Positions 3,133 to 57,625 of a stretch of DNA of 57,625 nucleotides are shown here, in pieces. The number at the start of each line of letters is the position of its first letter. The first letter of the stretch is position 1. The translations under genes and the position numbers were made by a program. Source of the stretch: Planctomycetia bacterium (GTDB lineage Bacteria > Planctomycetota > Planctomycetia > Pirellulales > Thermoguttaceae); assembly GCA_030527015.1 (NCBI GenBank), contig JAUNBR010000016.1, positions 1-57,625 of the forward strand, read 5' to 3'. The notes below the pieces were generated by a model. The model did not search any database. It was not told the origin of the DNA and saw nothing but the letters and a program-made list of their open reading frames with translations.

Positions 3133-3233
3133 TACTCGAGACACTATAAGATTCTGCGTTTCCAGCATTTTGCTTCACTGAAAATGGCGGTTTTCAGAAT
3201 GTATAAAACGGAAATTTAAAGCTGGAAACATAC
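3133..3233 (+). repeat. TATAC repeat, plus, diverged ends
   Basis: Core GCATTTTGCTTCACTGAAAATG and the flanking CACTATAAGATT and GGAAATTTAAAG are present; both outer ends have drifted. It lies 16 bp downstream of the TadE-like gene. Confidence 0.75.
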
Positions 3234-3248
3234 AGAAATAAATTTATT

Positions 3249-3722
3249 TTAACGAACACTCACACTACTGACGCAAATCGTGTCATTCGTCGCGCTTATT
3301 CCCTTAAACTGGGGAAGAAGCCAATAATGTTTCGTTTTATTATTCGTGCTGAGTTCCTCCAGTTTAATCTGGACCGCCACATATCCACTGCCAAGTGATG
3401 GTGTGGTGACTTCCTGCCACGCACCTGAACCCGTTTTTTCTAGAATTTTAATTGTATCATCGGTCACAAGATCCGCAAAATACCATCCGTCGACAGCTTC
3501 TTTCGCTGCCTCCTTAATATTTACCACATTATCCTCTGTTACCGCCACCCGAGCTGCGGCAGCAGTCGCCGACTGAAGAGCCTGGTGCGTCATTAACATC
3601 ACGGAAACCTGGTAAATCAGCACGACCATCAGTAAAATAATGGGTAAAATCAGCACGAATTCCAGAGTTAAAGAGCCTCGTCGCGAAGATACAAATTTTT
3701 TCTTTTTATAGCACATAATCAT
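3249..3722 (-). CDS. TadE-like pilus-assembly/secreted protein
   Basis: Small protein of about 157 residues resembling TadE/TadG-like pseudopilins, which are processed and exported with Flp-type pilus systems. What shows this: a short positive N-terminus (CYKKKKFVSSRRG), then Gly-x-x-x-x-Glu followed by a hydrophobic helix (LTLEFVLILPIILLMVVLIY), then an Ala-rich helix (ATAAAARVAVTE) and a beta-rich C-terminal domain. The Glu five residues after Gly fits the TadE pattern. The open frame extends to a TTG at 3743, but ATG at 3722 (or 3716) is preferred; the ribosome binding site is weak. No other tad gene is nearby, so it may work with a distant locus. A perfect 18-bp palindrome lies 40-60 bp upstream. 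Confidence 0.7.
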   Translation of the reverse strand: MIMCYKKKKFVSSRRGSLTLEFVLILPIILLMVVLIYQVSVMLMTHQALQSATAAAARVAVTEDNVVNIKEAAKEAVDGWYFADLVTDDTIKILEKTGSGAWQEVTTPSLGSGYVAVQIKLEELSTNNKTKHYWLLPQFKGISATNDTICVSSVSVR

Positions 3723-3762
3723 GATTATCGCCTGTTTTATCAAAATTTTATCGAGAATTATT

Positions 3763-3780
3763 CATAATGGTACCATTATG
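3763..3780. promoter_or_regulatory. Perfect 18-bp palindrome upstream of the TadE-like gene
   Basis: CATAATGGTACCATTATG is fully self-complementary and sits about 40 bp upstream of the chosen start codon. Its position suits an operator for a dimeric regulator; the regulator is unknown. Confidence 0.4.
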
Positions 3781-3865
3781 TTTTTCGGTTATATTCTCTG
3801 ACAGATTCAGAGATTATCAAGAAACGCGCATAAAACAAAAAATCGGCATATTTTAACGTTTTTTT

Positions 3866-3893
3866 TCTCTTACGCGGAATTCCACGTAAGAGA
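3866..3893. repeat. 28-bp near-perfect palindrome
   Basis: Arms TCTCTTACG and CGTAAGAGA enclose GGAATTCC with a single mismatched pair. A T run precedes it on the plus strand, which is the wrong side for a minus-strand terminator, so it is not called as one. Confidence 0.5.
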
Positions 3894-4004
3894 CCGTACG
3901 CCAATTTATTTTAGCAGCAATAAATCAAAGAAGAAACTATCATCCACGTGCAGTTTTTTACAAAACATCAGTATTCCGTGAAGATTTTAAAACAAAATTA
4001 ATTT

Positions 4005-4109
4005 TATACCCGATACACTATAAAATTCCGCTTCACCGGTATTTAGCTTCACTGAAAATGCCTGCTTTCAGAAGCGCACAAAACGGAAATTTAAAGTAGA
4101 AGCAGTATA
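4005..4109 (+). repeat. TATAC repeat, plus, full length
   Basis: Typical 105-bp copy: left end TATACCCGATACACTAT, core TTAGCTTCACTGAAAATGCC, right end closing GCAGTATA. It ends 12 bp from the sigma-factor stop codon. Confidence 0.9.
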
Positions 4110-4121
4110 TGTCTCAAAATT

Positions 4122-4688
4122 TTAATGTTCTTCGGCAGATTTCCGCATTTTTGCTCGCGCACGAGAAAGAGTCGGGCCAATCGTATTTTCAGGAACGCCC
4201 GTTTCTTGCGCGATCTGTGCGTACGATTTTCCTTCTAAATGATACGCTCTGACAATTTTCGCTTCATTCGCCGGTAAACCAGCCAAAAGATACTCGATTT
4301 CCTCTTTATCCTCGATCCGTTTTTCCATTTCCCCGACATTTTCAGTCACAAAATAATCGGCCTGAGACTCTGTCTGGATATGTAAACGTTTTTGCAAAAT
4401 AATCCGTACGACAATTCTTCGCACGACGACGGTTAAATACGTGGCCAGACTGCTGTTTCCACGAAAACGCCGTAAAATAGTAAAATTATCTGCTAAAATC
4501 GCCGCAAAAGCTTCATTTACCAGTTCATCGTGATCTTCCGGAGAAAGATGAATATTCCTGGAAACCGATGTATGACGAATTACATGATATACCAGACCAA
4601 TAAATCGGTCCACAAAATCCTCCCAGGCACGTGGCTGTTTTTGCAGACACCGCTCCAGAATATTACGATCTATTTCGGAAAACGCCAT
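4122..4688 (-). CDS. ECF-type RNA polymerase sigma factor
   Basis: Sigma factor of 188 residues that directs RNA polymerase to a specific promoter set. Region 2 (about residues 18-112) contains the AWEDFVDRFIGLVYHVI helix, DELVNEAFAAIL and the RFRGNSSLATYLTVVVRRIV segment used for core binding and -10 recognition. Region 4 (about 130-185) reads LPANEAKIVRAYHLEGKSYA followed by a helix-turn-helix that binds the -35 element. The short linker and lack of region 3 mark the ECF group. No anti-sigma gene is adjacent. A weak AAGGAA precedes the ATG. The target promoters cannot be deduced from this window. Confidence 0.9.
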   Translation of the reverse strand: MAFSEIDRNILERCLQKQPRAWEDFVDRFIGLVYHVIRHTSVSRNIHLSPEDHDELVNEAFAAILADNFTILRRFRGNSSLATYLTVVVRRIVVRIILQKRLHIQTESQADYFVTENVGEMEKRIEDKEEIEYLLAGLPANEAKIVRAYHLEGKSYAQIAQETGVPENTIGPTLSRARAKMRKSAEEH

Positions 4689-5048
4689 AATTTATACATT
4701 CCTTGCTGCCAGGATTTTCTTCGAAAATCAGATTTTATTTTAAACTTTTTCCTTCTTTACAAAAATCACCATCTATATTAGATTATAATATGACCGCACG
4801 GAAAATCAATAAAAAAAATATAATTTTATAAAAATTTCTTTAGAAATTTACATCAGAAAAACGGTTTTTTCGGACTAAAATAAAATGTGCATTTATTTAC
4901 TCCCCATTTCTTGCCTTCATTTCCCTTTTTCCATCAAAAAAACAGACTTCCATTAATACAAAATTTTATAAAAGGCCATATCCCGTCCCGTCACCTGTCC
5001 TTCTTTCATTCTTTCATTCTTATCGCTGAACCTCCGACATAAACCCCC
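4689..5048. other. AT-rich intergenic region
   Basis: No gene or TATAC repeat is seen. The sequence is AT-rich with a short direct repeat TTCTTTCATTCTTTCATTCT near 5003-5022. It should contain the promoter of the sigma factor, but no box pair stands out. Confidence 0.5.
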
Positions 5049-7079
5049 TTAAAGCGATAAAATGTACTCTATTAAATCCTGTTTATCCTGTTCCGAAAGC
5101 TGATCCAGCCGTTTTTCAGGATCTCCATGATACCCTTTAAATAATAATTCCTGCAGCGTGGTATACCGCCCATCATGTAAATAAGGAGCCGTGCGAAATA
5201 CCTCATTTAACCCCGGAGTATCAAAATCACTGTAAGCATCATATTCATTTTCAGACAAAACATCATGCATTTTTTTGTCCGTAAAATATTTACCGTAATG
5301 ACAGGAAGAACATCCCGTACGATTACTAAAAAACAGTCTTTTTCCACGTTTCGCGGATTCCGTCAGTGTGCCGTCCGGATTTAACGCCATTCCCGGAGTG
5401 GGAGTTAATGCCTGAAGATATGCATCCACATCCTGATACAGTGATTCATCCTGGGGCATAAAATGAATGTGAATGAAACCTGCGCGTGTGGCAATAAACG
5501 CATTTTTTCTGATTCCCGTCACCATGCACGGCGGCGTCTGATACGAGTACAGCATACTTTTTGTGTTTTTATGATTCCCGACTCCATCATTCAAAAGATC
5601 CCAGTTCATCCCATCCACCCGTGCTTCCGGATGACATGTGGCGCAAGAATGCCACCGTTCCTGCGCGAGTTCCGCATCATGAAAATAAATCTCACCCCGT
5701 CTGACCGCATCCAAAACTGGAGGTTCTCCCAACGAAATTATATGAGGGTGAAAAGACGTAAAATGCTCACACGTACCATAAATTCCTCTCTCTTTTTTCT
5801 GAACCTTTTCTTTCGCTGCCATATTCTCACGAGAGAAAACCACCAGATTATCTGAAAAATATCCCGCCGCGACCGTATATTTTTCATTTATCACCAGCGC
5901 ACGTGGCCCGATCAGCTCTTCACAGCGCACCATTTTTAGCGTCTGCTGTAATGTTCCTGCACTCCAAACCACGTTATAACCCGCTGAAAGCCCCTGAAGA
6001 TCCCGTGTCATACGCGCTATCAGTTCTTCCACACCAATAAAACCGACTTCCCGACATCCCGAAAACGTGATCGCCAGCAGTTTTCCATCAGAAGAAATCC
6101 GAATACTCCACGGATTCGCGGCACCCTGTAAACTGTCATCCAGAAGATAACATCCCGTCCGATCCTCATTCTCCACATCTAAAATGGTTAAGCCATTCCG
6201 ATTCGTCCATCCGCCAGAAAGCTGAGAAGTTATCGAACGGTGCTCAGACTGAACATGGATTAAAAAAACATATTTTCCGTCCGGCGACACACAAAGATCC
6301 CGCACACTGTTCGAACCGTCCGGAAGTACCACATTTTTCACATCTCGAGTCATGGTATCCACAATCGAAATTTCCGCCGCCACGATCACTTCATTAGACG
6401 GCATTAACGGTAAAAAATTCGCCACATAAAGCCGCTTTTCATCCGGTGAAAGCTCCATCTGAAGTGGTTCTCGAACCACCTTCACTTTTGGCGCATTTTC
6501 CCATGCCTCTGCCGGGTCCTGATGAAGATCCACAAAAGCGACATCTGCATGATACCGCCGCGCGATAAGTAACGTATCTGAACGCTTTATATACGCCAGG
6601 GCAGTCGGTGTATGCATTCCTTTCCACCGACGAAGAATTTTCATCTCCACCGGATCCACTTCCACCACCTCCCCGTTCAGCTGACCACAAGAAATATAAA
6701 TCCGAGTGACCGTTTTTTCCGCCTTTTTAACTTCCACCTTTAACATATCATTCGGCCTGCCAGGAAGACTCATCTGCCGGAGTACCTTCTGCTGCTCCAA
6801 ACAAAAAATATCTAATCGCCACGCATCCTGCTGCAAAACGCACAGCGTTTTATCATCCAGAAACTCCAGCGCACTCGGCCCAAGATAACTTCCTGAAACT
6901 TCCTCGCTTTTTTGAAATTCCCCCACCTTTATTTCCTCCTCCGCATAAAACACCGTGGGCGGAAAATTCTCCTCTTCCGACGAAAATAAAAGTAACGCAC
7001 TCCATGATATTCCTAAACATGACAGCACTATTAAAAATAACTTATATCTCAAAAAAATACAAAAGTTCTTCATTTTCAT
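5049..7079 (-). CDS. Secreted beta-propeller protein with C-terminal di-heme cytochrome domain
   Basis: Exported protein of about 676 residues. A signal/anchor segment (YKLFLIVLSCLGISWSALLLF) is followed by a beta-propeller of the YVTN type (about 50-430), with blades such as MELSPDEKRLYVANFLPL and LCVSPDGKYVFLIHV. The C-terminal part holds two c-type heme motifs, CATCH (about residue 479) and CSSCH (about 590), plus the PYLHDGRYTTLQELL segment of the MauG/cytochrome c peroxidase family. That family reduces peroxide or oxidises protein side chains; which applies here is unknown. It should act outside the cytoplasmic membrane and needs cytochrome c maturation. The open frame starts at a TTG (7085), but ATG at 7079 is more likely; no strong ribosome binding site is seen. 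Confidence 0.8.
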   Translation of the reverse strand: MKMKNFCIFLRYKLFLIVLSCLGISWSALLLFSSEEENFPPTVFYAEEEIKVGEFQKSEEVSGSYLGPSALEFLDDKTLCVLQQDAWRLDIFCLEQQKVLRQMSLPGRPNDMLKVEVKKAEKTVTRIYISCGQLNGEVVEVDPVEMKILRRWKGMHTPTALAYIKRSDTLLIARRYHADVAFVDLHQDPAEAWENAPKVKVVREPLQMELSPDEKRLYVANFLPLMPSNEVIVAAEISIVDTMTRDVKNVVLPDGSNSVRDLCVSPDGKYVFLIHVQSEHRSITSQLSGGWTNRNGLTILDVENEDRTGCYLLDDSLQGAANPWSIRISSDGKLLAITFSGCREVGFIGVEELIARMTRDLQGLSAGYNVVWSAGTLQQTLKMVRCEELIGPRALVINEKYTVAAGYFSDNLVVFSRENMAAKEKVQKKERGIYGTCEHFTSFHPHIISLGEPPVLDAVRRGEIYFHDAELAQERWHSCATCHPEARVDGMNWDLLNDGVGNHKNTKSMLYSYQTPPCMVTGIRKNAFIATRAGFIHIHFMPQDESLYQDVDAYLQALTPTPGMALNPDGTLTESAKRGKRLFFSNRTGCSSCHYGKYFTDKKMHDVLSENEYDAYSDFDTPGLNEVFRTAPYLHDGRYTTLQELLFKGYHGDPEKRLDQLSEQDKQDLIEYILSL

Positions 7080-7158
7080 AATCAAAAATTAAAATTCTTT
7101 CACTAATTTCTCGTTAAATTTTCATTTCACACGGTTCCGCGTCAGTATTTTCAGGAAA

Positions 7159-7264
7159 ATACACGAGTTTTACTTTAAATTTCCGTCTTGTGCGCCTCTG
7201 AACGTACGCATTTTTCGCAAAGCAAAATGCCGCAAAAACGGAATTTTATAGTGTATCGAGTATA
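7159..7264 (-). repeat. TATAC repeat, minus
   Basis: Reads TACTTTAAATTTCCGTCTTG and closes GTGTATCGAGTATA. The inner loop arms are weakened (GCATTTTTC against GCAAAATGC). Confidence 0.85.
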
Positions 7265-7324
7265 AATCCTAGCATAAATTCCATATAACCACAAGAGACC
7301 ACCTGATTCTTTCATTTCATGGAA

Positions 7325-7429
7325 ATACTGGCTCCCATTTAAATTTCCGCTTCTGCGGCATTTTTGCTTCGAGAAAAATATCTGCTTTCAGAACCACGCA
7401 AAATGGAAATTTAACGGAAAACTTGTATT
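7325..7429. repeat. Chimeric TATAC repeat: minus left end joined to plus body
   Basis: The first 25 bases read as the minus form (ATACTGGCTCCCATTTAAAT). From the shared TTTCCG onward it reads as the plus form (CTTCTGCGGCATTTTTGCTT, then CTGCTTTCAGAACC). Both ends are therefore of the right-end type. This is what recombination or inversion through the shared inner arm would produce. Confidence 0.8.
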
Positions 7430-7485
7430 ACAGTAAAATCAGAATTCCACAAAAAATCATACGGCCACCATTTTTCGTATTCATA

Positions 7486-7592
7486 TATTACTGGTTCCAT
7501 TTTAAATTTCCGTTTTGTGCATCTCTGAAAGCAGGCATTATCGGCGAAGCAAAAATGCCGCAGAAGCGGAAATTTATAGTGTATCGGGTGTA
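7486..7592 (-). repeat. TATAC repeat, minus, full length
   Basis: Begins TATTACTGGTTCCA, has CTGAAAGCAGGCATT and closes GTGTATCGGGTGTA. Confidence 0.9.
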
Positions 7593-7718
7593 AAATAACG
7601 GCCATAAAGCACCGATTTTATTCATCGCGTAAAATTCAGACTTTTTCACCATCCTGTTTCTGATGAGAGAAAAACAGAAATTTATAGTGGCTCACACCAT
7701 GCAGACGTATGAAGAGTT

Positions 7719-7823
7719 TATACTGGTTCCACTTTAAATTTCCATTTTGTGCGCCTCTAAACGCAAGCATTTTTCGCGAAGCAAAATGCCGCAGAAACGG
7801 AAATTTATAGCGTATCGGGTATA
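7719..7823 (-). repeat. TATAC repeat, minus, full length
   Basis: Begins TATACTGGTTCCACTTTAAA and closes CGTATCGGGTATA; close to consensus apart from the middle. Confidence 0.92.
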
Positions 7824-8919: not shown

Positions 8920-9248
8920 TCCTTTTACCTCCAGTTGAGTTTTTACGCAAGCCACCATTCCCACCCAATTTTTAATTTTCATTACAGAAAACTTTTACTA
9001 ATTTTGGATGTGAGTAAGAATCAGTGCTCTTAATAATATCGTCCTACTCGTTACTACCATCGGAAATAAGACAATTATAACTCCAGTCCGTTTCGGCATA
9101 ATCCGCATTTCTGCTGGTATTTTGTTTATTAATAGAATTAAAATCGCTATAATCCATACATCTTAACATTTTTATATACACTTTTCATTTTGTTAAAATT
9201 TACTTTTTTATACTATTTTAAAATTTTGGTAATTATCTTTTAAATCTT

Positions 9249-9374
9249 TATACCCGATGCATTATAAAATTCCACTTCTCCTGTCCGCCGACAGGCAGGC
9301 CGGAATTTTTGTTTCCCTGAAAACGCCTGTTTTCAGGGAAACACAAAACAAAAATTTAAGCGAGAACCTGTATA
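9249..9374 (+). repeat. TATAC repeat, plus, long subtype with nested insert
   Basis: Standard ends (TATACCCGATGCATTAT, closing GAACCTGTATA), but CTGTCCGCCGACAGGCAGG is inserted after CTTCTC (about 9280-9298). The core has also changed: TTTCCCTGAAAA (9312-9323) pairs perfectly with TTTTCAGGGAAA (9330-9341), a 12-bp stem with a six-base loop in place of the usual core hairpin. Confidence 0.9.
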
Positions 9375-9435
9375 TTTAATCAACTATTTTTGTGCAAAAG
9401 TCCATAAAGAATTTTTTTATACAATAATATTTATT

Positions 9436-9540
9436 TATATCCGATGCACTATAAAATTCTGTTTCTCCGGCATTTTTGTTTCGCTGAAAATGCCTGTTTC
9501 GGAGCCACACAAAACAGAAATTTAAACGAGAACCTGTACA
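9436..9540 (+). repeat. TATAC repeat, plus, full length
   Basis: Begins TATATCCGATGCACTATAAA, core CGGCATTTTTGTTTCGCTG, closes GAACCTGTACA. Confidence 0.9.
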
Positions 9541-13623: not shown

Positions 13624-13724
13624 TATACTGGTTCCACTTTAAATTTCCATTTTGTGCGGTTCTGAAAGAGGCTTTTCCAGCGGAGTTAAATGTCGGTGAA
13701 GCGGAATTTTATAGTGTATCGGTA
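13624..13724 (-). repeat. TATAC repeat, minus
   Basis: Begins TATACTGGTTCCACTTTAAA, closes TAGTGTATCGGTA; the core is shortened and its hairpin arms are disrupted. Confidence 0.88.
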
Positions 13725-13908: not shown

Positions 13909-14013
13909 TATACAGGTTCTCCTTTAAATTCCCGTTTCGTGTGGTTCTGAAAGCAGGTATTTTTAGCGGAAAAAAATGCCGGAGACACGGAAATTTATAG
14001 TACCTCGGGAATA
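13909..14013 (-). repeat. TATAC repeat, minus, full length
   Basis: Begins TATACAGGTTCTCCTTTAAA. Core GGTATTTTTAGCGG...AAAAATGCC keeps pairing through a G-T pair. Confidence 0.88.
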
Positions 14014-14076
14014 AAATTCATCGGGTACTTCTCAAAACATGTCTGCAAAATCTTTTAGTACGCCAGGAATAAAATA

Positions 14077-15315: not shown

Positions 15316-15416
15316 TAAATTAAATTTTACTTTTCTTACATTACTTTACTGAAAATGTAATGACAGATCCGCACAAAACTTAAATGGAAGGTAAAAATTC
15401 ATAGTGGATCGGATAT
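15316..15416. repeat. Chimeric, degenerate TATAC repeat
   Basis: Left and middle are of plus type (ACTTTACTGAAAATG, CAGATCCGCACAAAACTTA); the right end is of minus type (ATTCATAGTGGATCGGATATA). The middle shares CAGATCCGCACAAAACTTA with the copy at 16227, so the two are related. Confidence 0.65.
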
Positions 15417-15520
15417 ATACTGGTTCCACTTTAAATTTCCGTTTTTTGCGCCTCTCGAAGCAGGTATTTTCAGCGAAATAAAATGCCGGAGGAGCAGAAT
15501 TTTATAGTGTATCGGGTATA
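15416..15520 (-). repeat. TATAC repeat, minus, joined to the previous copy
   Basis: Begins TATACTGGTTCCACTTTAAA and closes TAGTGTATCGGGTATA. It shares the TATA at 15414-15419 with its left neighbour, as expected if a copy inserted at the TATA end of another. Confidence 0.9.
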
Positions 15521-16226: not shown

Positions 16227-16344
16227 TTTACCCGATACACTATAAAAATTCGCTTCTCCTGCATTTTATTTCGCTGAAAATGCATGTCTTCAGATCCGCA
16301 CAAAACTTAAATGGAAGATAAAAATTTATAGTGGAACCAGTAAT
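16227..16344. repeat. Chimeric TATAC repeat: plus body with swapped right part
   Basis: Left end TTTACCCGATACACTATAAA and core are of plus type; the right side contains AAAATTTATAGTGG (minus type) before GGAACCAGTAAT. It is about 118 bp, longer than usual. Confidence 0.75.
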
Positions 16345-16441: not shown

Positions 16442-17635
16442 TTATTTCATTTCATCCCGCACCTGACAGAATGCCTGAACTACTTTTTCCAGTTCTTCCT
16501 GCGTATGAGCAGCGCATACCTGGGTACGGATTCTCGCGCGGCCACGTGGCACCACCGGGAAGAAGAAGCCCACCACGTACACGCCCTTTTCCAGCATACG
16601 CTGCGCCATTTCATTCGCCAGTCGTTCATCATAAAGCATGACGGGAACGATCGGATGTGTGCCGGGGATAATATCAAAATTCGCGGCCGTGAGCATCTGA
16701 CGATACATGTCCGTATTTCGCTGAAGCGTGTCTCGCAGTTCGGTGCTGGCCTCCAGAAGCTCTAATGTTTTTAGAGTTCCCGCCACCACCGCCGGCGCGA
16801 CAGTATTCGAGAACAGATATGGTCGGCTGCGCTGACGTAAAAGAGCGATAATTTCACGGCGACCACTGGTGTATCCACCGGACGCGCCTCCCAGAGCTTT
16901 TCCGAAGGTTCCCGTGAGAATATCCACCCGGCCCATAACCCCACAGTGTTCCGGCGTTCCTTTTCCATGCGCGCCGACGAAACCCACGGCGTGAGAGTCA
17001 TCCACCATTACCAGAGCGTTATATTTATCCGCTAAATCACAGATTCCCTGTAAATTCGCGATAATTCCATCCATGGAAAAAACACCGTCCGTGGCGATTA
17101 ATTTAATCCGAGCACCTGCCGCATCCGCCTCCTGAAGCCGTGCCTCCAGATCCTGCATGTCATTATTCTTATAACGAAAACGTTTTGCCTTACAGAGCCT
17201 CACTCCGTCAATAATACTCGCGTGATTCAGCTCATCACTAATCACGGCGTCTTCCGCCGTAAGAATCGTTTCGAAAAGACCACCGTTCGCGTCAAAACAC
17301 GAAGAATAAAGAATCGTATCATCCGTACCAAGAAAACGTGAAAGCGCAGCTTCCAGTTCTTTATGCCCGTCCTGAGTTCCGCAGATAAAACGGACAGACG
17401 CCATTCCGAAACCACGGTGATCATACGATTCTTTCGCCGCGGCAATAATTTCTGGATTATTCGCCAGACCAAGATAATTATTCGCGCACATATTAATCAC
17501 ACGCTGGCCACATGAAGTGCCGATTTCCGCACCCTGTGGAGTTACGATAATCCGTTCTTCCTTCCATAAACCCGCCTCACGGATTTCTTCCAGCTGTGTC
17601 TGATAATAATTTAAAATTTTCGTTCTGTCTTCCAT
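16442..17635 (-). CDS. kbl: Glycine C-acetyltransferase (2-amino-3-ketobutyrate CoA ligase)
   Basis: PLP enzyme of 397 residues that interconverts 2-amino-3-oxobutyrate plus CoA with glycine plus acetyl-CoA, in threonine breakdown. The PLP lysine is Lys246 in [14 protein letters not shown]; Asp212 (VDDSHAVG) and His137 ([10 protein letters not shown]) are the cofactor-contacting residues of the family. Sequence and length fit Kbl better than related ALA synthase or AONS. AGGAG lies six bases before the ATG. The usual partner, threonine dehydrogenase, is not adjacent. Confidence 0.93.
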
Positions 17636-19051: not shown

Positions 19052-19154
19052 TTATGTGGGTTTCCCTTAAATTTCTGTTTTGTGTGGCCATGAAAATCAG
19101 ACATTTTACCGGAAAAAATGTCTGAGAAACGAAATTTTATAGTACATCAGGTAA
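19052..19154 (-). repeat. TATAC repeat, minus, diverged
   Basis: Reads TTATGTGGGTTTCCCTTAAA, then CAGACATTTTACCGG...AAAAATGTCTG, whose arms changed together (GACATTTT / AAAATGTC), keeping the hairpin. Confidence 0.8.
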
Positions 19155-30569: not shown

Positions 30570-30830
30570 CTTCGTATTCCTTAATTGAACTGTGTGGATC
30601 GCCAATTGTGATTCTTTCGCCGCGCAGAAATACCTCATTCATTATTTATTATAAACATAAATAAGATAAAACCACAGCTGCACGCCACACACACGATAAA
30701 ACGCCTGTGTGACTCACAACCAGGGACAACTGATTAAAATATATTAATTATTTATAAATTTCTTATTATCGGGATTATCCCAAACTTTTTATCTGTTCTG
30801 CGGGAAGCCTTTTTTATTTTCGGCCTTTTT

Positions 30831-30921
30831 AAATTCGGCACACAATAAAATTCCGCTTTACGAGTATTTCGCGATATGTGAAATACCTGTTTCTGGACCG
30901 CACAAAACTTTATTTAACGTA
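30831..30921 (+). repeat. TATAC repeat, plus, diverged with compensatory core changes
   Basis: Reads CACACAATAAAATTCCGC; the core arms are GTATTTC and GAAATAC instead of GCATTTT and AAAATGC. Both arms changed so that pairing is kept. Confidence 0.75.
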
Positions 30922-30998
30922 TTTTCCGTATCCGTAATAATATTTCTTTGTATCTTCCGAATAAAACAAATTTTTTCACCACGTGAAATAACAGTTTT

Positions 30999-31105
30999 TA
31001 TACCCGATGCACTATAAATTTCCACTTTCTCGGCATTTTGCTTCGCAGAAAATGCCTGCTTTCAGAACCGCATAAAACGGAAATTTAAAGTAAAACTAGA
31101 GTATA
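30999..31105 (+). repeat. TATAC repeat, plus, full length
   Basis: Begins TATACCCGATGCACTATAAA, core CGGCATTTTGCTTCGCAG, closes AACTAGAGTATA. Confidence 0.92.
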
Positions 31106-32278: not shown

Positions 32279-32504
32279 CGTTTTTTATTAAAAAATTATG
32301 ATTATTTATTCAGGAATTCTATGATCCTGGTTCTCCTACAATTCTCGTTTTGTACAGCACCGCCACAGGTATTTTCAAAAACTGCAAAATACCTGAAAAT
32401 AAAAATTTCATATTACAGGGAAAAAATTTTGTCCGTATCTCTCATATTTTCAGTCAGCGGTATTCAAAATACATGAAAATTTATACATTAAACTTTAATT
32501 AAAA

Positions 32505-32580
32505 TTACTGATTTCTGTTTTATTCTCCGTTTAATGTGACTCTGAACACAGAATTTCCGGCTCAGCCTGCACGGGCAGGG
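32505..32580 (-). repeat. Degenerate TATAC repeat with small hairpin
   Basis: CCGTTTAATGTGACTCTGAA resembles the minus form. The rest is replaced by CCTGCACGGGCAGG, a short inverted repeat like inserts in other copies. Confidence 0.45.
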
Positions 32581-32584
32581 AAAG

Positions 32585-32691
32585 TTACGCTGATTCTCGT
32601 TTAAATTTCCGTTTTATACGGCTCTTTATTCAGACATTTTCAGCGAAGAAAAAATGTCGAGGAAACGGAAATTCATCGTGTCTCGGATATA
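32585..32691 (-). repeat. TATAC repeat, minus, full length
   Basis: Reads GATTCTCGTTTAAATTTCCG, GACATTTTCAGCG...AAAATGTC (both arms changed together), closing GTGTCTCGGATATA. Confidence 0.85.
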
Positions 32692-32933
32692 AAACAGTCA
32701 AAAAAAGTCCATATTTCCCAGCAAACATTCTTCGAAACGAAATGTCAGGATAAATCTGCACACCAGTCAGGAAAATCAAAAATTTATTTTAAAAAACCGA
32801 AAAAGAATCATCGTGTTCCATGAAATATCATACATTAAACATAATTTTACATAATCTGGGACACACGTAATCTTTCATTTTATAAAATCAAAAATTTATT
32901 GACAAAATTTGTTTTTTTTACTAAAAAATTCTT

Positions 32934-34295: not shown

Positions 34296-35022
34296 ACAAA
34301 AATTAAAGTAAACAGAATTCTTTTCTCTTACTTTATGAATCATTCCCATAAATTTAACGGTTAAAGTATTTACACTTTCACTTTCCCCGGCGTTTCTTGA
34401 AATATGTTTTTTGACACACATTTCGTAATAAAAGTTTTTTTATATATGTTTTTAGTTCATAATTTGTAATGCACGTTTCGTTATCTGTGATTCGCACTGC
34501 TGGTGAAGCAGCACGAGACAAAAATTTAGAAGCGAAATCTTTCGTGCCATATTTTTAATTAAATGTTTTCATAATCATTCTGGCATGTTATACGGGTTCC
34601 ACTTTAAATTTCCGTTTTTTGCTTCACTGAAAACAGGCATTTTCATCGAAGCAAAATGTCGGAGAAGCGGAAATTTATAATGTATCGTGTATAAAACTTT
34701 TCTTTCATTCACCTCTGGAAAAGTTTTCTCATGCCAGATTCTTTTGTGCTCAAAAGATTTTTGTTTTCAAAATTTATATTTTCGTCCGAGAAAGTATTTT
34801 TCGCTGTATTTAAAGGCAGTTTTTGCCATATTTAAGGGGAATTTTATAAAAAATCAGGAGATTTTTGCGGTAACAGATATACATTATATTTAATAATTAA
34901 TATTTATTTTTTATATACCTGGCCTCCTGTTTTAAATAGGAGCTCTCGACTTTCGTTCTCTCTGAATATCCCCTGGCACTAAATGTTTTTATTTTCAAAA
35001 TCTGGTACATAAAACGTTTATG
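34296..35022. other. Convergent intergenic region with one TATAC repeat
   Basis: Besides the repeat, a ten-base-pair stem (AAAACTTTTC / GAAAAGTTTT, 34693-34727) directly follows it; it lacks a convincing T run. The remainder is AT-rich and unexplained. Confidence 0.5.
34589..34693 (-). repeat. TATAC repeat, minus, full length
   Basis: Begins TATACGGGTTCCACTTTAAA, closes ATGTATCGTGTATA. The middle has GCTTCACTGAAAACAGG in place of the usual GTGCGGCTCTGAAAGCAGG, as if partly overwritten by the plus core. Confidence 0.88.
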
Positions 35023-36995: not shown

Positions 36996-37101
36996 GTACT
37001 CTGATTTTACTATAAAATTTCTGTTTTATACAGTTCTGAAAGCCTGCATTTTCAGCGAAACATGCCGGAAAAGCTGCTGAAATTTATAGTATATCGGTAT
37101 A
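36996..37101 (-). repeat. TATAC repeat, minus
   Basis: Reads GTACTCTGATTTTACTATAA, core CCTGCATTTTCAGCG, closes ATATCGGTATA. It begins 24 bp upstream of the neighbouring start codon, so transcription of that gene likely begins in or beyond the repeat. Confidence 0.85.
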
Positions 37102-37396
37102 AATACCTGTCTAAAATACTAAAAAAGTTTTATATCTTCGACAAAAAATTACATCTTCAGCATTTTTCTAAAAGTACACAGCGTTCGTGACCGTATGAAA
37201 CTTAAATTTATAGGTAATCCTCAGAATAAACCGCTTCCAAATACTTTTCTAAAAATGAGTTACAGTATATACAGAAACTCATTCTTTCTCTGATTTCTAA
37301 AATTTTTTATATTATACACTATTTTTAGAATTTCTCCATCATATACTCATGAAAAATAGGAATTTTAGGAAATACTTTTCGATATTTTTGAAATAT

Positions 37397-37501
37397 TATA
37401 CCCGATACACTATAAAATTCCACTTTCCCCGCATTTTATTTCGCTGAAAATGCCTGCATCCAGAGCCGCACAAAACGGAAATTTAAAGTGGAACCAGTAT
37501 A
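37397..37501 (+). repeat. TATAC repeat, plus, near consensus
   Basis: Reference copy. TATACCCGATACACTATAAA at the left, GCATTTTATTTCGCTGAAAA in the core, AAAGTGGAACCAGTATA at the right. The outer 26 bases of the two ends pair at about 20 positions. Confidence 0.95.
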
Positions 37502-37619: not shown

Positions 37620-37722
37620 TGATCCCCGATACACAATAAATTACAGTTTCTCCGGCATGTTTCGCTAAAAACGCCTGTTTTCAGAGCCGCACAAAACAAA
37701 AATTTAAAGGAGAACCAGTATA
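37620..37722 (+). repeat. TATAC repeat, plus, full length
   Basis: Begins TGATCCCCGATACACAATAA; closes AGGAGAACCAGTATA. A separate scrap, CACACAAAACAGAAT, directly precedes it. Confidence 0.88.
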
Positions 37723-37756
37723 AAAAGTAAAATCAGAATATTTTTCCCTCCATATT

Positions 37757-37822
37757 TATATCCGATACACATTAAATTTACTTCTTCAGTTTTTTTGCTT
37801 CACCAGAAACGCCTGTCAGAAC
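37757..37822 (+). repeat. TATAC repeat, plus, right part missing
   Basis: Begins TATATCCGATACACATTAAA and continues to CACCAGAAACGCCTGTCAGAA, then stops matching. Confidence 0.75.
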
Positions 37823-37845
37823 GGCAGGATTAATAAGATGAATTT

Positions 37846-37951
37846 TATACCCGATACACTATAAATTTTCGCTTCTCCGGCTTTTTTGCTTCGCTGAAAA
37901 AGCCTGCTTTCAGAGCTGCACAAAACGGAAATTTAAAGTGGAACCAGTATA
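37846..37951 (+). repeat. TATAC repeat, plus, near consensus
   Basis: Begins TATACCCGATACACTATAAA, closes AAAGTGGAACCAGTATA. It ends 61 bp before the TIM-barrel start codon. A GTG inside it opens a false N-terminal extension of that gene. Confidence 0.95.
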
Positions 37952-38862: not shown

Positions 38863-38987
38863 CATACAGGTTTTCCTTTAAAATTCCGTTTTGTGCGATT
38901 TTTAAAACTGATATTTTTAGCGAAGCAAAAATGCCGGCCGGCCTTTCGCTGACAGGAGAAGCGGAAAAATTTCATGCATCGGGTATA
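38863..38987 (-). repeat. TATAC repeat, minus, long subtype with nested insert
   Basis: Begins CATACAGGTTTTCCTTTAAA, closes ATGCATCGGGTATA. After AAAATGCCGG an extra stretch (GCCGGCCTTTCGCTGACAGG) is inserted at the same point as in the copy at 9249. It begins 11 bp after the stop codon of the TIM-barrel gene. Confidence 0.88.
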
Positions 38988-39016
38988 TAAGCCACCGGAT
39001 AATTTCCAGGCGGTTT

Positions 39017-39046
39017 TATGCCCGATACACTATAAATTTTCACTGC
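39017..39046 (+). repeat. TATAC repeat fragment, left end only
   Basis: TATGCCCGATACACTATAAA followed by TTTTCACTG; the rest is missing. Confidence 0.75.
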
Positions 39047-39117
39047 CGTTTATAAAGATGATACCACATCTTTCACGTCTTCTCTTTTAAATGTTTCTTG
39101 GAATGTGAGGTAAAATT

Positions 39118-40131: not shown

Positions 40132-40135
40132 GTTT

Positions 40136-40240
40136 TATACCCGATACACTATAAAATTCCGCTTCCACGGCATTTTGATTCACTGAAAATGCCGGCTTTC
40201 AGAGCCGCGAAGATCTGAAATTTAAAGTGGAACCAGTATA
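40136..40240 (+). repeat. TATAC repeat, plus, 4 bp after a stop codon
   Basis: Begins TATACCCGATACACTATAAA, closes AAAGTGGAACCAGTATA. The SpoU stop codon ends at 40131. Confidence 0.95.
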
Positions 40241-40342
40241 TTTTTAAATTTAAGTTTTATGCAGTTATAAAGCCAGCATTTTAATGCATGTCACAGGATG
40301 CCTGACAAGAGAAAACTTTAGTGAATCTGGGAGATGAATTAA

Positions 40343-40852: not shown

Positions 40853-40865
40853 ACAGAATGCGTTT

Positions 40866-40969
40866 TATACCCGACACACTATAAATTTTCACTTCCCCGG
40901 CATTTCGCTTCGCGGAAAATACCTGATTTCAGAACCACATAAGAAGGAAATTTAAACGAAAACCAATAA
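40866..40969 (+). repeat. TATAC repeat, plus, 13 bp after yraN
   Basis: Begins TATACCCGACACACTATAAA. The core is CGGCATTTCGCTTCGCGGAAAATACCTG, in pieces: GCATTTC pairs with GGAAAATAC only by allowing wobble. Ends AACCAATAA. Confidence 0.85.
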
Positions 40970-41453: not shown

Positions 41454-41559
41454 TTTTGACCCGACGCACATAAACTTCCATTTCCTCGGCATTTTCGCTG
41501 CGGTAAAAATGCTCTGCATTTAGAGCAGGTATAAAATGAAAATTTAGAGGAGAACCCGA
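41454..41559 (+). repeat. TATAC repeat, plus, diverged, in the blaI leader
   Basis: Reads TGACCCGACGCACATAAACT; core GCATTTTCGCTGCGG...AAAATGC keeps its stem. It lies between promoter and gene, so it should be transcribed in the mRNA leader. Confidence 0.75.
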
Positions 41560-44005: not shown

Positions 44006-44039
44006 CTCATTTTTTGCTTTTACCCATCACTGAAAATTT

Positions 44040-44146
44040 TATACCCGATGCATGATAAATTTTCGTTTCCCAGGCATTTTTGTTTCACTGAAAATGGCCT
44101 GCTTTCCGAGCCGCGCTAAACGAAAATTTAAAGGAGAACCAGATAT
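44040..44146 (+). repeat. TATAC repeat, plus, 34 bp after the M56 gene
   Basis: Begins TATACCCGATGCATGATAAA, core AGGCATTTTTGTTTCACTG, closes GGAGAACCAGATAT. Confidence 0.88.
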
Positions 44147-45942: not shown

Positions 45943-46050
45943 TATATTCTGGTTTTATTTTAAATTTCCGTTTTCTCCGGCTCTGAAAGCCGGCCCTTTT
46001 CGAAGAAACAAAAATGTCTGAAAAGTGAAATTTATAGTATTTCGGAGATA
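45943..46050 (-). repeat. TATAC repeat, minus, 36 bp after the Nudix gene
   Basis: Begins TATATTCTGGTTTTATTTTA; closes AGTATTTCGGAGATA. Confidence 0.82.
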
Positions 46051-46100
46051 AAATTCCACTTCCCTGTCTGCTGACCAGGCATCTCTGCTGGCAAATTTTC
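46051..46100 (+). repeat. Degenerate TATAC half-copy with nested insert
   Basis: AAATTCCACTTCCCTGTCTGC matches the plus left part, then a variant of the CTGTC...GACAGG insert (CTGTCTGCTGACCAGGC) and the match fades. Confidence 0.5.
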
Positions 46101-47440: not shown

Positions 47441-47537
47441 TGTAATTTTGGTTTTCCTTTAAATTTCCGTTTTGTGCAGTCACAGAAGCAGATTTTTCAT
47501 GCATTACGAAATGCAGAGAGAAAAAATTCATCGTATA
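47441..47537 (-). repeat. TATAC repeat, minus, directly after a stop codon
   Basis: Reads GTAATTTTGGTTTTCCTTTA, TGTGCAGTCACAGAAGCAG, ATTCATCGTATAAA. It starts 1-2 bp past the epimerase stop codon and is degenerate in its core. Confidence 0.7.
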
Positions 47538-47544
47538 AAAATAT

Positions 47545-47640
47545 TATACCCGATGCACTATAAAACTCTGGTTCTTCGGCATTTTGTTTCGTTAAAAATA
47601 ACTGCTTTCAGAATCACACAAAACGAAATGAGAACCAGCA
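47545..47640 (+). repeat. TATAC repeat, plus, slightly shortened
   Basis: Begins TATACCCGATGCACTATAAA; closes AATGAGAACCAGCA. Together with the preceding copy it forms a back-to-back inverted pair. Confidence 0.85.
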
Positions 47641-48427: not shown

Positions 48428-48440
48428 AATTTTATCTCTG

Positions 48441-48837
48441 AACTTCTCTCTTTCCGACATTTTTCGCCTAAAATACGCACGCTTCAGAAATACACGAAAC
48501 ATAAAATAAAAACATTCCGGACGCTCTTTTCATTTTATTTTCGCGCAGTCATAAAAACAAGAATTTTCTGAACCGCACATTCCGGCGGAAAAGCAAAAAT
48601 CGCTGGGGGACACGAATTTATAGTACGTCCGGAATTTATAACTTCCCTCTTTCCGACATTTTTTCGCCTAAAATACTCACGCTTCAGAAATACGCGAAAC
48701 ATAAAATAAAAACATTCCGGACGCTCTTTTCATTTCATTTTCGCGCAGTCATAAAAACAAGAATTTTCTGAACCGCATATTCTGGCGGAAAAGCAAAAAT
48801 CGCTGGGGGACACGAATTTATAGTATATCCGGAATAA
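48441..48837. repeat. Tandem duplication of a 199-bp intergenic unit containing a diverged TATAC copy
   Basis: Copy 1 is 48441-48639, copy 2 is 48640-48837; they differ at only a few positions and one T indel. Each unit has CTTTCCGACATTTTTCGCC near the left, and on its right a minus-type TATAC derivative (CGCAGTCATAAAAACAAG ... GGGGACACGAATTTATAGTA). The duplication is recent compared with the divergence of the repeat itself. No gene is present in 48428-48864. Confidence 0.9.
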
Positions 48838-49960: not shown

Positions 49961-50071
49961 TATACTCTGGTTTTTTTCTTTAAATTTCCATTTTATGCGG
50001 CGCGGAAAGCCGAAAGTTTCAGCGAGGCAAAATGTCAGAAAATCAGAAATTTATAGTATGCATCGGGTATA
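49961..50071 (-). repeat. TATAC repeat, minus, slightly long
   Basis: Begins TATACTCTGGTTTTTTTCTT; closes TATGCATCGGGTATA. Confidence 0.85.
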
Positions 50072-50092
50072 AAAATGGAAATGGCACAAAAG

Positions 50093-50137: not shown

Positions 50138-50262
50138 ATATCCGATCATACACCCGATGTACTATTCATTTTTTGATTTCTTCGTCCGCCGACAGACAGG
50201 CAGTTTTTTCGTTTCCCTCAAAACACCTGTTTTAATAGCCACACATAATAAAATTTACTGTA
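50137..50262 (+). repeat. TATAC repeat, plus, degenerate long subtype
   Basis: Two left-end motifs (TATATCCGAT and ACACCCGATGTACTAT), then GTCCGCCGACAGACAGGCAG, then GTTTCCCTCAAAACACCTG, as in the copy at 9249. Right end faded. Confidence 0.65.
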
Positions 50263-52626: not shown

Positions 52627-52696
52627 TTTCTTCTCCTGGAGTTTCTGAACTAAATTTTGATCATGAATTATCAGATGATATACGAGTCGACGACTT

Positions 52697-52805
52697 TATA
52701 CCCGATACACTATAAATTTTCGCTTCTCCGGCATTTTTTGCTTCGCTGAAAAAGCCTGCTTTTAGAGCCGCACGAAACGGAAATTTAAAGTGGAACCAGA
52801 GTATA
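52697..52805 (+). repeat. TATAC repeat, plus, near consensus
   Basis: Begins TATACCCGATACACTATAAA; closes AAGTGGAACCAGAGTATA. Lies 70 bp upstream of the unknown gene. Confidence 0.95.
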
Positions 52806-52926: not shown

Positions 52927-53013
52927 TTTATTTAAAATTTCAGTTTTCCCTGCATGACCAGCAGGCATTTCATGGATCGTGGAATACTGCGTAATTTAAA
53001 AATTACCGTGCTT
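52927..53013 (-). repeat. TATAC repeat, minus, degenerate
   Basis: TTTATTTAAAATTTCAGTTT, then CCTGCATGACCAGCAGGCATT, then AATTACCGTGCTTCGAACAT; only the outline of the minus form remains. Confidence 0.5.
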
Positions 53014-53260
53014 CGAACATAAAAGATGAAAAATAAAACTTTTCATACATTAAAAATATATTATCTTGTATTTCATCGTAATAATCTGAGAAAAACATTC
53101 GTTTCTGTAATCCGTTCAAGAGATAAAATCTCTTCTTTCCCCCAAACAGAAACAATTATCGCGATTATTCTGCCTGGGCAAAATCATTTTTTCATGATAT
53201 ATTCGTTCCACATCAAATTTTCGTTTTACGTACTGATTCATCATAAATATTTTTTTGTTT

Positions 53261-53366
53261 CTAAATGGATTCTCTTTTAAATTTCCGTTTTGTGCGGCTC
53301 TGAAAGCCGGTATTTTCAGCGAAATAACATGCCGAGAACACACAAAAAATTATCGTGTATCGGAAA
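53261..53366 (-). repeat. TATAC repeat, minus
   Basis: Reads GGATTCTCTTTTAAATTTCC, CTGAAAGCCGGTATTTTCAG, closes ATTATCGTGTATCGG. Confidence 0.85.
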
Positions 53367-53473
53367 AAAAGCCTGCGAAATGAAAATTTGTTACGAATCA
53401 AAAATAATTCCTCTCTGATTTTTAAGTCTCCTTTTTCATCTTGTCAAAAATTTTATTTACTTTATACTGATTT

Positions 53474-53581
53474 TATACTCGATACACTATAAATTTCCGT
53501 TTCCCTGGTATTTTTGCTTCGATGAAAATAACGGCTTTCAGAACCGCACAAAACGAAATTTTAAAGGAAAACCAGAGTATA
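53474..53581 (+). repeat. TATAC repeat, plus, full length
   Basis: Begins TATACTCGATACACTATAAA; closes AAAGGAAAACCAGAGTATA. About 100 bp upstream of mtaB. Confidence 0.92.
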
Positions 53582-53683
53582 CTTCGCCGAAAATATATGA
53601 CTCTGACCATGTAAAACTTAAACTCATTTAAAAGTAGAACCCGTACAGAACATCTCTCCCCTACGAAAATTAGAAATAATAAA

Positions 53684-55276: not shown

Positions 55277-55370
55277 AAAAGTTCCTCGATACTTGTTTTT
55301 TTAGTAAAAAAGGGTATAATTTTTTAAAATATTTTTCAGTAAAACGTCTATATACATTTACAAAACTATT

Positions 55371-56060: not shown

Positions 56061-56116
56061 AAATACTGAATTCAGAACTTCATTTTCATTTCGCGCAGTC
56101 ATATACAAAAACATAT

Positions 56117-56226
56117 TATACCTGATACACTATAAAAAATATCCGCTTCTCCGGCATTTTGCATCACGGAAAATGCGCATGCTTTCAGAACCGTATAAGA
56201 CGGAAAATTAAGGTAAAATCAGGGAC
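56117..56226 (+). repeat. TATAC repeat, plus
   Basis: Begins TATACCTGATACACTATAAA; right end drifted (AAGGTAAAATCAGGGACA). Confidence 0.85.
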
Positions 56227-56250
56227 ATATCTCTGAAAATGCGAAAAATG

Positions 56251-56357
56251 TATCTTCAGGCTTTTCATTAAATTTAATTTGTGTGACCACGGAAACCAGC
56301 ATTTCTGGTAACGCAAAATACTGACAAAACGAAAATTTATAGTATCTCGGGAATATA
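56251..56357 (-). repeat. TATAC repeat, minus, diverged
   Basis: Reads TTCAGGCTTTTCATTAAATT and closes AGTATCTCGGGAATATA. Shares its last TATA with the next copy. Confidence 0.75.
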
Positions 56358-56458
56358 CGGGTTCTCCTTTAAACTTCCATTTTGTGCTGCACTGAAAGCA
56401 GGCATTTTTAGTGAAGTAAAATACCAGAGAAGCGGAATTTTAGAATACATCGGGTATA
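56354..56458 (-). repeat. TATAC repeat, minus, ending 3 bp before a start codon
   Basis: Begins TATACGGGTTCTCCTTTAAA; closes ATACATCGGGTATA. Three A residues then the ATG of the sulfatase-like gene follow, so the whole upstream region of that gene is repeat. Confidence 0.92.
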
Positions 56459-56461
56459 AAA

Positions 56462-57316
56462 ATGTTTAAAACACCGATTTTTTTTTCTGTGGATAAACTT
56501 TCCATTTCATCTCCCGGATGTTTTGGAAATACTCGAGTACATACACCTGGCCTGGATTCTCTTGCAGTCAAAAGTTGTGTTTATGACCGCGTATACGCCG
56601 AAGATGCAGATCCACGGATCACGCTGAGAAAAATGTGGGATTCCCTGGATCCCATTTCATATCCAGAGGGAAGATTTCTTCTGACAGATGACGCACAGAT
56701 TCACCCATCTTCTTTTTTTGATGATTTTCTGTGTGTGGAAAATTTTTCGCAGCTAACAAAAATGTTAGAGTGTATCCAGCAGGAGCTGCCCGATGTTTTT
56801 CTTTGGTGTCACACGCAGAATGTGGATATAAACACGCTGGATTCTTGGGTTTTAACGCATGAAATTTCTGCCTTATTAAGTGTCCGAGGAATGGACGTGC
56901 GAAAAATAACAGAGGAAGACGCTCCCGAGGAGAATCTCCGACGAAACATGATTCACCACCAAGAAGTTCAGTTACCCTGGTGGATTTCATTTCCTGATTT
57001 TTTAAATCTGTCTGGCACACGCTGTAAGTCACTTTTAGCGGCAGAAGATTTCGGAAAGATTTTACGGACAGAAGATCCACAAAACATATCTCGTGAAATT
57101 ATATTTATAGAAGACGCCCCACGCTGGGCGGTGGTTACGGCGGAATGGTTTCTCACCGGGGATGACCGTCTGGACAGAAAATCAGAATTTCCTGGTGAAC
57201 TTTACTTGAAACCAGACGACTGGTGGGAACAGAATGATGTTTCCGACAGATGCCCTGAGATCATGGAAAAGTTACATGCGCTCCGATCGGCGCGTTTTAT
57301 GCCCGACACGCCATAA
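56462..57316 (+). CDS. Degenerate sulfatase-like protein
   Basis: Protein of 284 residues resembling the ends of a sulfatase (alkaline phosphatase superfamily). The N-terminus FFSVDKLSISSPGCFGNTRV, then HTPGLDSLA, resembles the sulfatase pattern D-x-L-R-x-D-x-L-G-C-Y-G-N then T-P-x-L-D-x-L-A. The C-terminus GELYLKPDDWWEQNDVSDRC resembles the usual E-L-Y-D-L-x-x-D-P-x-E-x-x-N. The middle, including the catalytic C/S-x-P-S-R formylglycine motif and metal ligands, is absent and the length is about half of usual. It is probably not a working sulfatase. Its start lies just past one TATAC repeat, with no ribosome binding site, and its last residues (MPDTP-stop) are encoded by another. Confidence 0.6.
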   Translation: MFKTPIFFSVDKLSISSPGCFGNTRVHTPGLDSLAVKSCVYDRVYAEDADPRITLRKMWDSLDPISYPEGRFLLTDDAQIHPSSFFDDFLCVENFSQLTKMLECIQQELPDVFLWCHTQNVDINTLDSWVLTHEISALLSVRGMDVRKITEEDAPEENLRRNMIHHQEVQLPWWISFPDFLNLSGTRCKSLLAAEDFGKILRTEDPQNISREIIFIEDAPRWAVVTAEWFLTGDDRLDRKSEFPGELYLKPDDWWEQNDVSDRCPEIMEKLHALRSARFMPDTP

Positions 57317-57436
57317 TTTTTCATTTTACGCAGCCACAGCAGCAGACTTTTAACACGATGATGTGGTTCCGAATGCCCAGTATTTTTAGCGAAACAAAAT
57401 GCTGGAAAAGCAGAGAATTTTATAGTGCATCGGACA
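57298..57436. repeat. Mosaic of TATAC repeats overlapping a stop codon
   Basis: Begins with a plus left end (TATGCCCGACACGCCATAAT) that supplies the TAA stop of the sulfatase-like gene, then switches to minus-type sequence (CATTTTACGCAGCCACAG), then a second minus body (GTATTTTTAGCGAAACAAAA ... TATAGTGCATCGGACATA). Confidence 0.75.
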
Positions 57437-57457
57437 TAAGAAAGCGAAAATACAGGG

Positions 57458-57489
57458 AAAACGGAAACTTATCGTGCATCGGGCATAAT
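57458..57489 (-). repeat. TATAC repeat fragment (end portion)
   Basis: GAAAACGGAAACTTATCGTG followed by CATCGGGCATAAT: the last part of a minus copy, identical to the end of the full copy that follows. Confidence 0.8.
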
Positions 57490-57594
57490 TATACTGACTC
57501 CACTTTAAATTTCCGTTTTGTGCGGTTCTGAAAGCAGGCATTTTCAGCGAAGCAAAATGCCGGAGAAGCAGAAACTTATCGTGCATCGGGCATA
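57490..57594 (-). repeat. TATAC repeat, minus, full length, in tandem
   Basis: Begins TATACTGACTCCACTTTAAA; CTGAAAGCAGGCATTTTCAG in the core; closes GTGCATCGGGCATAAT. Identical sequence recurs 107 bp later. Confidence 0.95.
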
Positions 57595-57596
57595 AT

Positions 57597-57625
57597 TATA
57601 CTGACTCCACTTTAAATTTCCGTTT
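57597..57625 (-). repeat. TATAC repeat, minus, cut by the window end
   Basis: TATACTGACTCCACTTTAAA and TTTCCGTTT repeat the start of the previous copy at a 107-bp period; the array continues beyond the window. Confidence 0.92.

Follow-up and report, generated by a model that had tools for sequence, protein, structure and literature searches.

A 102-bp palindromic repeat in thousands of copies in one planctomycete genome, very probably a miniature transposon and likely moved in trans by an IS630-family transposase

We analyzed a window of 57,625 bases, which is one contig (C37) of the 3,838,372-base draft genome of a Planctomycetia bacterium (G000; 132 contigs, completeness 93.4%), and searched seven congeners, including G001, G004, G005 and G007. 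A sequence-only reading of the window had described a dense family of ∼105-bp palindromic repeats between the genes. A profile of this repeat was built on the window copies and then refined on sampled DNA, with a cut-off of E<=0.01. As shown in Table 1, the profile matched 47 copies in the window, 41 of them at E<1e-5 and 31 at full length (model positions 1-5 to 101 or beyond), whereas with the sequence of the window and 20 stretches reversed (446,975 bases) it matched nothing. The copies make up 8.0% of the window, or one copy per 1,226 bases. This result confirmed the family, and the number is close to the ∼42 full or nearly full copies and ∼8 fragments counted earlier by eye. An Rfam scan of the window gave no match at gathering scores.

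The repeat is 102 bp long, runs from TAC to GTA and is too short to encode a transposase; its consensus is TTATACCCGATACACTATAAATTTCCGCTTCTCCGGCATTTTTGCTTCGCTGAAAATGCCTGCTTTCAGAGCCGCACAAAACGGAAATTTAAAGTGGAACCAGTA. The left end, TACCCGATACACTATAAATTTCCG, and the reverse complement of the right end, TACTGGTTCCACTTTAAATTTCCG, form an imperfect inverted match. The ends TATACCCGATACACTATAAA and (as reverse complement) TATACTGGTTCCACTTTAAA, the inner arms AAATTTCCG/CGGAAATTT and the core hairpin that had been recognized by sequence-only reading are all present in the consensus. Its ends begin TATAC, and those of the Correia elements of Neisseria begin TATAG.

The abundance of the repeat in the rest of the genome was estimated in two ways. 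Among 20 contigs selected by their numbers, whatever their content (314,161 bases in total), the profile found 317 copies, 186 of them full, which occupy 9.5% of the sequence; in 20 stretches picked because they surround strong matches (389,350 bases) it found 503 copies, which occupy 12.5%. Straight extrapolation to the genome gives 3,873 copies from the unselected contigs, 4,959 from the hit-chosen stretches and 3,131 from the window. The 20-base left end, with at most 3 mismatches, occurs 2,023 times (992 + 1,031) in the whole 3.84-Mb genome, and the reversed pattern does not occur at all. Because these 2,023 ends can be scaled by the number of profile copies per left-end match (2.13, 1.96 and 1.74 in the three samples), we estimate a genome-wide total of ∼3,500-4,300 copies. 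The projection of thousands of copies per genome, for which a wider profile scan had been proposed, therefore holds. The two strands are used about equally (443 and 424 of the 867 copies in sampled DNA). Three unselected contigs are shorter than 3 kb and without any copy; L208, L211 and L217, whole contigs of 2.6-2.8 kb that hold no copy, could consist wholly of coding sequence or not belong to this genome.

Insertion was studied at the junctions of the 564 near-full copies, out of 867, that had both flanks. TA stood on both sides of the element at 322 of these junctions, against an expected 0.6%. Immediately ahead of the left end stood T, T, T, T and A, at 67, 78, 75, 94 and 89%, respectively; the right side had the following TA at 78 and 77% and lacked a T run. 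Of 564 copies, 225 had TTTTA directly ahead of the left end and 32 had it when read in from the right (background, 0.85%), and the T run is present without the element in two empty sites, L127 and L205:12369-12488. The insertion target is directional: a T run, then TA, ahead of the left end. Terminator T tracts as the target were unsupported, because in co-directional gaps the copies have no orientation relative to the genes (244 versus 227, p 0.46).

Since the congeners are too distant for orthologous comparison, empty sites were sought in duplicated DNA within the genome. Compared with its empty counterpart, filled DNA is longer by the element and one dinucleotide, which reads TA in the filled copy. 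The cleanest case is L205:17118-17219 (filled) and L205:12369-12488 (empty, with a single TA), a pair that lies in a duplicated stretch and is 89% identical over 120 columns. In a remnant of an IS630 element, L120 is filled and L127 empty, the difference being the element and two bases, and L127 reads TG. The copy at L215:10463-10563 lies in an IS630 end, and four other loci are empty there, with CA or CG replacing TA. Only such individually named cases were counted, because among the 40 listed joined flanks with a spanning BLAST match (128 of 564 in total) many were adjacent or tandem copies; the joined flanks of the other 436 had no match across the junction in sampled DNA. Copies also land inside IS630 genes and inside one another: the joined flanks rebuilt another copy in 48 of 564 cases, joins of at least 40 bits numbered 17 compared with 5, 7, 7, 2 and 1 in random controls, and 31 of 47 interior nested cases had TA on both sides. 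These data agree with the TA-targeted insertion proposed from the window.

Neighboring full copies tend to share orientation at short range (142 of 201 pairs within 200 bases, or 142 versus 59), with 59 of 112 same-orientation pairs at 201-1,000 bases and 117 of 217 beyond 1 kb. A copy's own left flank, TTTTA, may serve as a directional target for the next copy, and much of the same-way clustering would come from this target, and part of it from local tandem duplication. The spacer was included in the duplication in 20 of 91 same-way pairs with a separation of 51-200 bases and in 3 of 11 pairs with a separation of 31-50 bases, and same-way pairs 51-200 bases apart are more similar (0.82 versus 0.73). 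Local head-to-tail arrays with a period of ∼190-300 bases, whose amplified unit comprises both repeat and spacer, were seen at L174:11186-12086, L172:5927-6747, L161:2474-3044, L214:8791-9509 and window positions 48460-48835.

A candidate source of the mobilizing enzyme was found in the IS630 family. The IS630 DDE domain (DDE_3, PF13358) matched 6 times in G000, 16 times in G004 and 7 times in G005, with no match in the other five members of the genus, and the IS630 model NF033545 matched 12, 24 and 9 times in these genomes and once in G001. All IS630 matches in G000 are partial or carry stops; 2 of its 6 DDE_3 matches lie at contig ends, so a hidden intact copy is possible. The IS630 ends in G004 and G005 (TATACTCAATCGCATTTAAAATTCCG, TATACTACTTCTCCTATAAAATTCCCG and similar) have the same plan as the repeat, and an end in G000 reads TATACTCATGCCATTTTAAAATTCAG. 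The ends were scored with matrices made from the repeat's own ends against 125,080 background positions, taking the best position in a short stretch, which makes the counts somewhat favorable. Three right ends of G000 IS630 elements were matched or beaten by 0, 1 and 0 background positions, and the single left end observed was reached by 3; for comparison, the flanks of the unrelated ISAs1 gene of the window were reached by 478 and 89. IS630-type transposase genes with matching terminal repeats, which the sequence-only reading had suggested looking for, are present in decayed form in G000 and also in congeners.

The IS630 remnants L117, L120 and L127 of G000 carry a repeat copy at a common place in the transposase gene, and the G004 element L138 does not. 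The repeat may have jumped into an IS630 gene once, after which the broken element would have multiplied. An autonomous element in the form of two half repeats 0.6-3 kb apart was not found among the 38 right and 37 left halves in sampled DNA.

To place the family among relatives, the consensus was searched in 60 genomes (the host and 59 relatives), with up to 14 candidates scored per genome. Among the candidates scored, matches occurred in five genomes including the host, all of one genus, and 52 genomes of other genera had none; G001 and G005 had one partial match each. The left-end pattern occurred 191 times in G007, 15 times in G004 and not at all in five congeners. The G007 copies keep both ends and have a different core hairpin. 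Viral contigs had no match to one exact pattern, and plasmids had no BLAST match.

Taken together, the copies very probably form one family of 102-bp miniature inverted-repeat transposable elements (MITEs) that insert at TA, duplicate it and were likely moved in trans by an IS630 transposase whose genes have since decayed. The thousands of copies genome-wide and the IS630 genes with matching ends support the earlier suggestion of a non-autonomous IS630/mariner-type element. In the proposed mechanism, an IS630-family transposase would cut and paste the MITE in trans at TA, with duplication of the TA; an outburst would have taken place in the host lineage and would now be largely ended; and selection, rather than targeting, would keep copies out of genes. 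The 568 full copies differ from the consensus by 15.5% on average (5-95% range, 5.8-30.8%), and their nearest-neighbor identity has a median of 88%, with 50 of 568 at 97% or more, some of which are probably tandem duplicates. Because no intact IS630 gene was found and the mean divergence is of this size, the family is probably quiet now and its outburst largely over.

Several observations weigh against this account. The G000 draft, 93.4% complete and in 132 contigs, yielded no intact IS630 transposase gene. The ends of its IS630 remnants are alike to those of the repeat, not identical; ten congener IS630 ends were reached by 0 to 154 of the background positions; and G007 has its 191 end matches yet no IS630 match. 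The TA is unchanged in only one empty site, the dinucleotide having diverged in the others, and two of four joined-flank cases in non-repeat DNA lack a clean TA pair (TA/CA, TA/AA). No empty site between strains was seen, the congeners being too distant (60-67% protein identity in the best pieces). The nesting controls made with random intervals were not zero (11, 11, 18, 16, 6 and 15 of 564). Finally, in the 568 full copies the paired columns lie slightly above all 200 shuffles (0.825 versus a mean of 0.819 and a maximum of 0.822), as do the double changes (326 versus a mean of 268 and a maximum of 312), a small excess that is compatible with some selection on the hairpin.

This last point bears on an alternative in which the palindromes, whatever their origin, are kept by selection because the host uses them as transcribed hairpins, terminators, RNase sites or nucleoid-protein sites. 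We consider it improbable. Coding context was assigned with a simple gene caller on 761,136 sampled bases, which include the hit-chosen stretches and are biased upward. Coding sequence takes up 70% of this DNA, yet the gene overlap stays under 10% for 807 of 867 copies; of the non-coding bases, 35% belong to repeats. Convergent gaps hold the repeat at 1.47 times the density of divergent ones (p 0.0017). In a thinned set of 404 copies the inner hairpin retained a covariation z of 3.4, as host use would suggest, but the outer arms gave -0.5. Pairings slid out of register gave 186-371 double changes, as many as the 326 of the true pairing; folding was little better than that of shuffled sequences (mean z -0.93, 60 copies); and the copies have no orientation relative to genes. 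We rejected a conserved RNA structure, its outer arms showing no covariation and its inner hairpin a weak one. Five of the seven congeners lack the end pattern, though two of those have one partial match each. That copies avoid genes, and also the start-codon-proximal fifth of co-directional gaps (50 of 426), is the outcome expected of purifying selection on insertions. The distribution fits insertion followed by removal of harmful copies, so a host role gains little support, while single copies may have one.

Two other explanations are very unlikely. Shortness, palindromy, a mostly intergenic position and thousands of copies would also suit repetitive extragenic palindromes (REPs) or the REPINs built from them, but the REP-associated tyrosine transposases (RAYTs) that move them do not duplicate TA, whereas here TA is doubled at insertion and the ends match IS630; we rejected a RAYT as the driver, as G000 has no match to the Y1 domain (Y1_Tnp, PF01797). 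Spread chiefly by recombination or local tandem duplication would explain the arrays with duplicated spacers and the greater likeness of same-way pairs 51-200 bases apart, but hardly the 436 junctions without a match across them, the TA at both edges, the copies within other copies and within IS630 genes, or the equal use of both strands.

The copies in the window are listed in Table 1. The claim that all lie outside conserved coding sequence stands for most, although 3 of the 47 have an overlap above 10% with a predicted gene. Adjacent copies had also been said to share a single TATA at two places; they do so at 56354, but at 15416 two copies are separated by TATATA. An apparent second palindromic family, alike in its TATAC ends and with a core resembling GTGGTGCGTGGCTCCGACGG, was observed in the host genome, G004 and G005 (flanks of L174:5613-5716 and L199:18357-18495; L161:1992-2086; L118:1-100; L141; L143), and the 102-bp repeat inserts into it.

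Table 1. Profile matches to the 102-bp repeat in the window
Feature	Position	Strand	Score (bits)	Remark
Near-full copy	3132..3224	+	61.3	
Full copy	4004..4107	+	98.5	
Full copy	7164..7265	-	80.5	
Near-full copy	7331..7426	+	67.9	
Full copy	7489..7593	-	101.3	
Full copy	7721..7823	-	95.9	
Full copy	9248..9372	+	74.0	∼20-base internal insertion
Full copy	9435..9538	+	93.1	
Near-full copy	13626..13722	-	77.7	
Full copy	13911..14014	-	84.5	
Full copy	15418..15520	-	95.1	TATATA, then degenerate copy (11.4 bits) just upstream
Full copy	16228..16342	+	71.9	13-base insertion
Full copy	19058..19154	-	54.8	
Partial copy	30830..30908	+	28.1	
Full copy	30998..31098	+	97.2	
Degenerate copy	32327..32415	-	21.8	
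Degenerate copy	32506..32585	-	20.0	
Full copy	32590..32692	-	83.2	
Full copy	34591..34694	-	91.0	
Full copy	37001..37100	-	58.1	
Full copy	37396..37499	+	99.3	
Full copy	37622..37720	+	78.2	
Partial copy	37756..37828	+	31.1	
Full copy	37845..37949	+	110.8	Top score in window
Full copy	38865..38987	-	71.0	Internal insertion
Left-end fragment	39016..39047	+	14.9	E 0.0095
Full copy	40135..40238	+	94.4	Starts 4 bases past end of gene 39118-40131
Degenerate copy	40243..40332	-	19.6	
Full copy	40865..40965	+	78.6	
Full copy	41459..41558	+	56.7	
Full copy	44039..44142	+	89.6	
Full copy	45949..46051	-	67.5	
Partial copy	47449..47535	-	31.0	
Full copy	47544..47638	+	63.3	Full by model span
Degenerate copy	48524..48635	-	24.0	Within 200-base tandem duplication
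Degenerate copy	48724..48837	-	29.2	Second unit of 200-base tandem duplication
Near-full copy	49974..50072	-	66.9	
Degenerate copy	50149..50260	+	26.1	
Full copy	52696..52799	+	106.0	
Full copy	53268..53365	-	71.2	
Full copy	53473..53575	+	87.7	
Full copy	56116..56222	+	70.7	
Full copy	56257..56355	-	36.0	Full by model span; TATA common with next copy
Full copy	56356..56459	-	85.4	
Partial copy	57361..57439	-	42.8	
Left-half fragment	57442..57488	-	23.6	
Full copy	57492..57595	-	104.3	

Several genes of the window were also noted. The product of 16442-17635 (minus strand), which we take to be a 2-amino-3-ketobutyrate CoA ligase, is 73-75% identical to proteins of ‘Candidatus Apopatosoma intestinale’ and Hungatella, with a best congener match of 36%; by these similarities, the gene was likely acquired from outside the genus. 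The ISAs1-family transposase gene lies at 1530-2789 (minus strand) and scores 268 bits over nearly the whole model. Positions 19305-30638 (minus strand) form a single open frame of 3,777 residues, which contains repeats in its DNA (D17, D19) and, in the N-terminal part of the protein, the stretch LEDRIMLS, a type of motif known from planctomycetes; its first 200 residues had no match in NCBIfam. The protein encoded at 177-1409 (plus strand) contains 60-base tandem units (416-826) and a PEP-CTERM-like tail that scores below the cut-off, and the gene at 5049-7085 (minus strand) encodes a cytochrome-type protein with a di-haem peroxidase domain, which falls far below the cut-off for hydrazine synthase beta-gamma (88.9 bits versus 1250).

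The closest known elements are the repeat unit of pneumococcus (RUP) and the Correia elements. RUP, of 107 bp and 108-110 copies, with IS630-Spn1 as the proposed mobilizer, is likewise AT-rich, has terminal inverted repeats, targets TA, inserts into insertion sequence genes and has ends resembling those of an IS630 element of the same genome (PMC2229807, PMC3049150). The comparison with RUP is one of size, target and mechanism; the copy number here is estimated at 3,500-4,300, and a directional TTTTA target is not described for RUP in the available portions of these two papers. Similar, too, are the Correia elements (nemis) of Neisseria, of ∼107 and 155 bp with 24-bp terminal inverted repeats, TA ends and target duplication (PMC2229807), of which N. 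gonorrhoeae has more than 120 (PMC10969869). The enterobacterial repetitive intergenic consensus (ERIC) elements share the small MITE-like form, TA ends and target duplication (PMC2229807); their 711 copies in Photorhabdus luminescens, a count that no other in the accessible text of PMC10969869 exceeds, are about five times below our estimate, and an IS630 source is not named for them in the parts of these two papers at hand. Pseudomonas fluorescens SBW25 has dense intergenic palindromes as well, with a shorter unit and 1,422 REP 16-mers at up to 2 substitutions (PMC3116915). Anabaena 90 has 147 MITEs (PMC3542288), and in Thiomargarita one MITE gave BLAST matches on 260 of 439 contigs, TATA ends being a feature of another (PMC4853749). 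According to the consulted sections of a 2024 review, plant MITEs reach 8-10% of the genome and nothing so extreme is found in prokaryotes (PMC10969869).

The mechanism is known, and the load is exceptional. The open-licence literature searched yielded neither a load comparable to this one nor an earlier description of the repeat family. We are inclined, with some reserve, to the view that ∼4,000 copies, a tenth of the DNA and about a third of the intergenic DNA, were made in one species by an IS630 enzyme reading a directional TTTTA and have outlived every intact copy of that enzyme, which would be a load on the plant scale and the heaviest single family of short transposons reported in any prokaryote.

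With 9.5% of unselected bases belonging to one MITE family, the tolerance of thousands of insertions in a small, gene-dense genome becomes testable. The same is true of what ended the outburst and of why the host species underwent it while its seven searched congeners hold 0-191 ends. The presence of the MITE inside decayed IS630 genes suggests that the parasite had a part in the loss of the enzyme that drove it.

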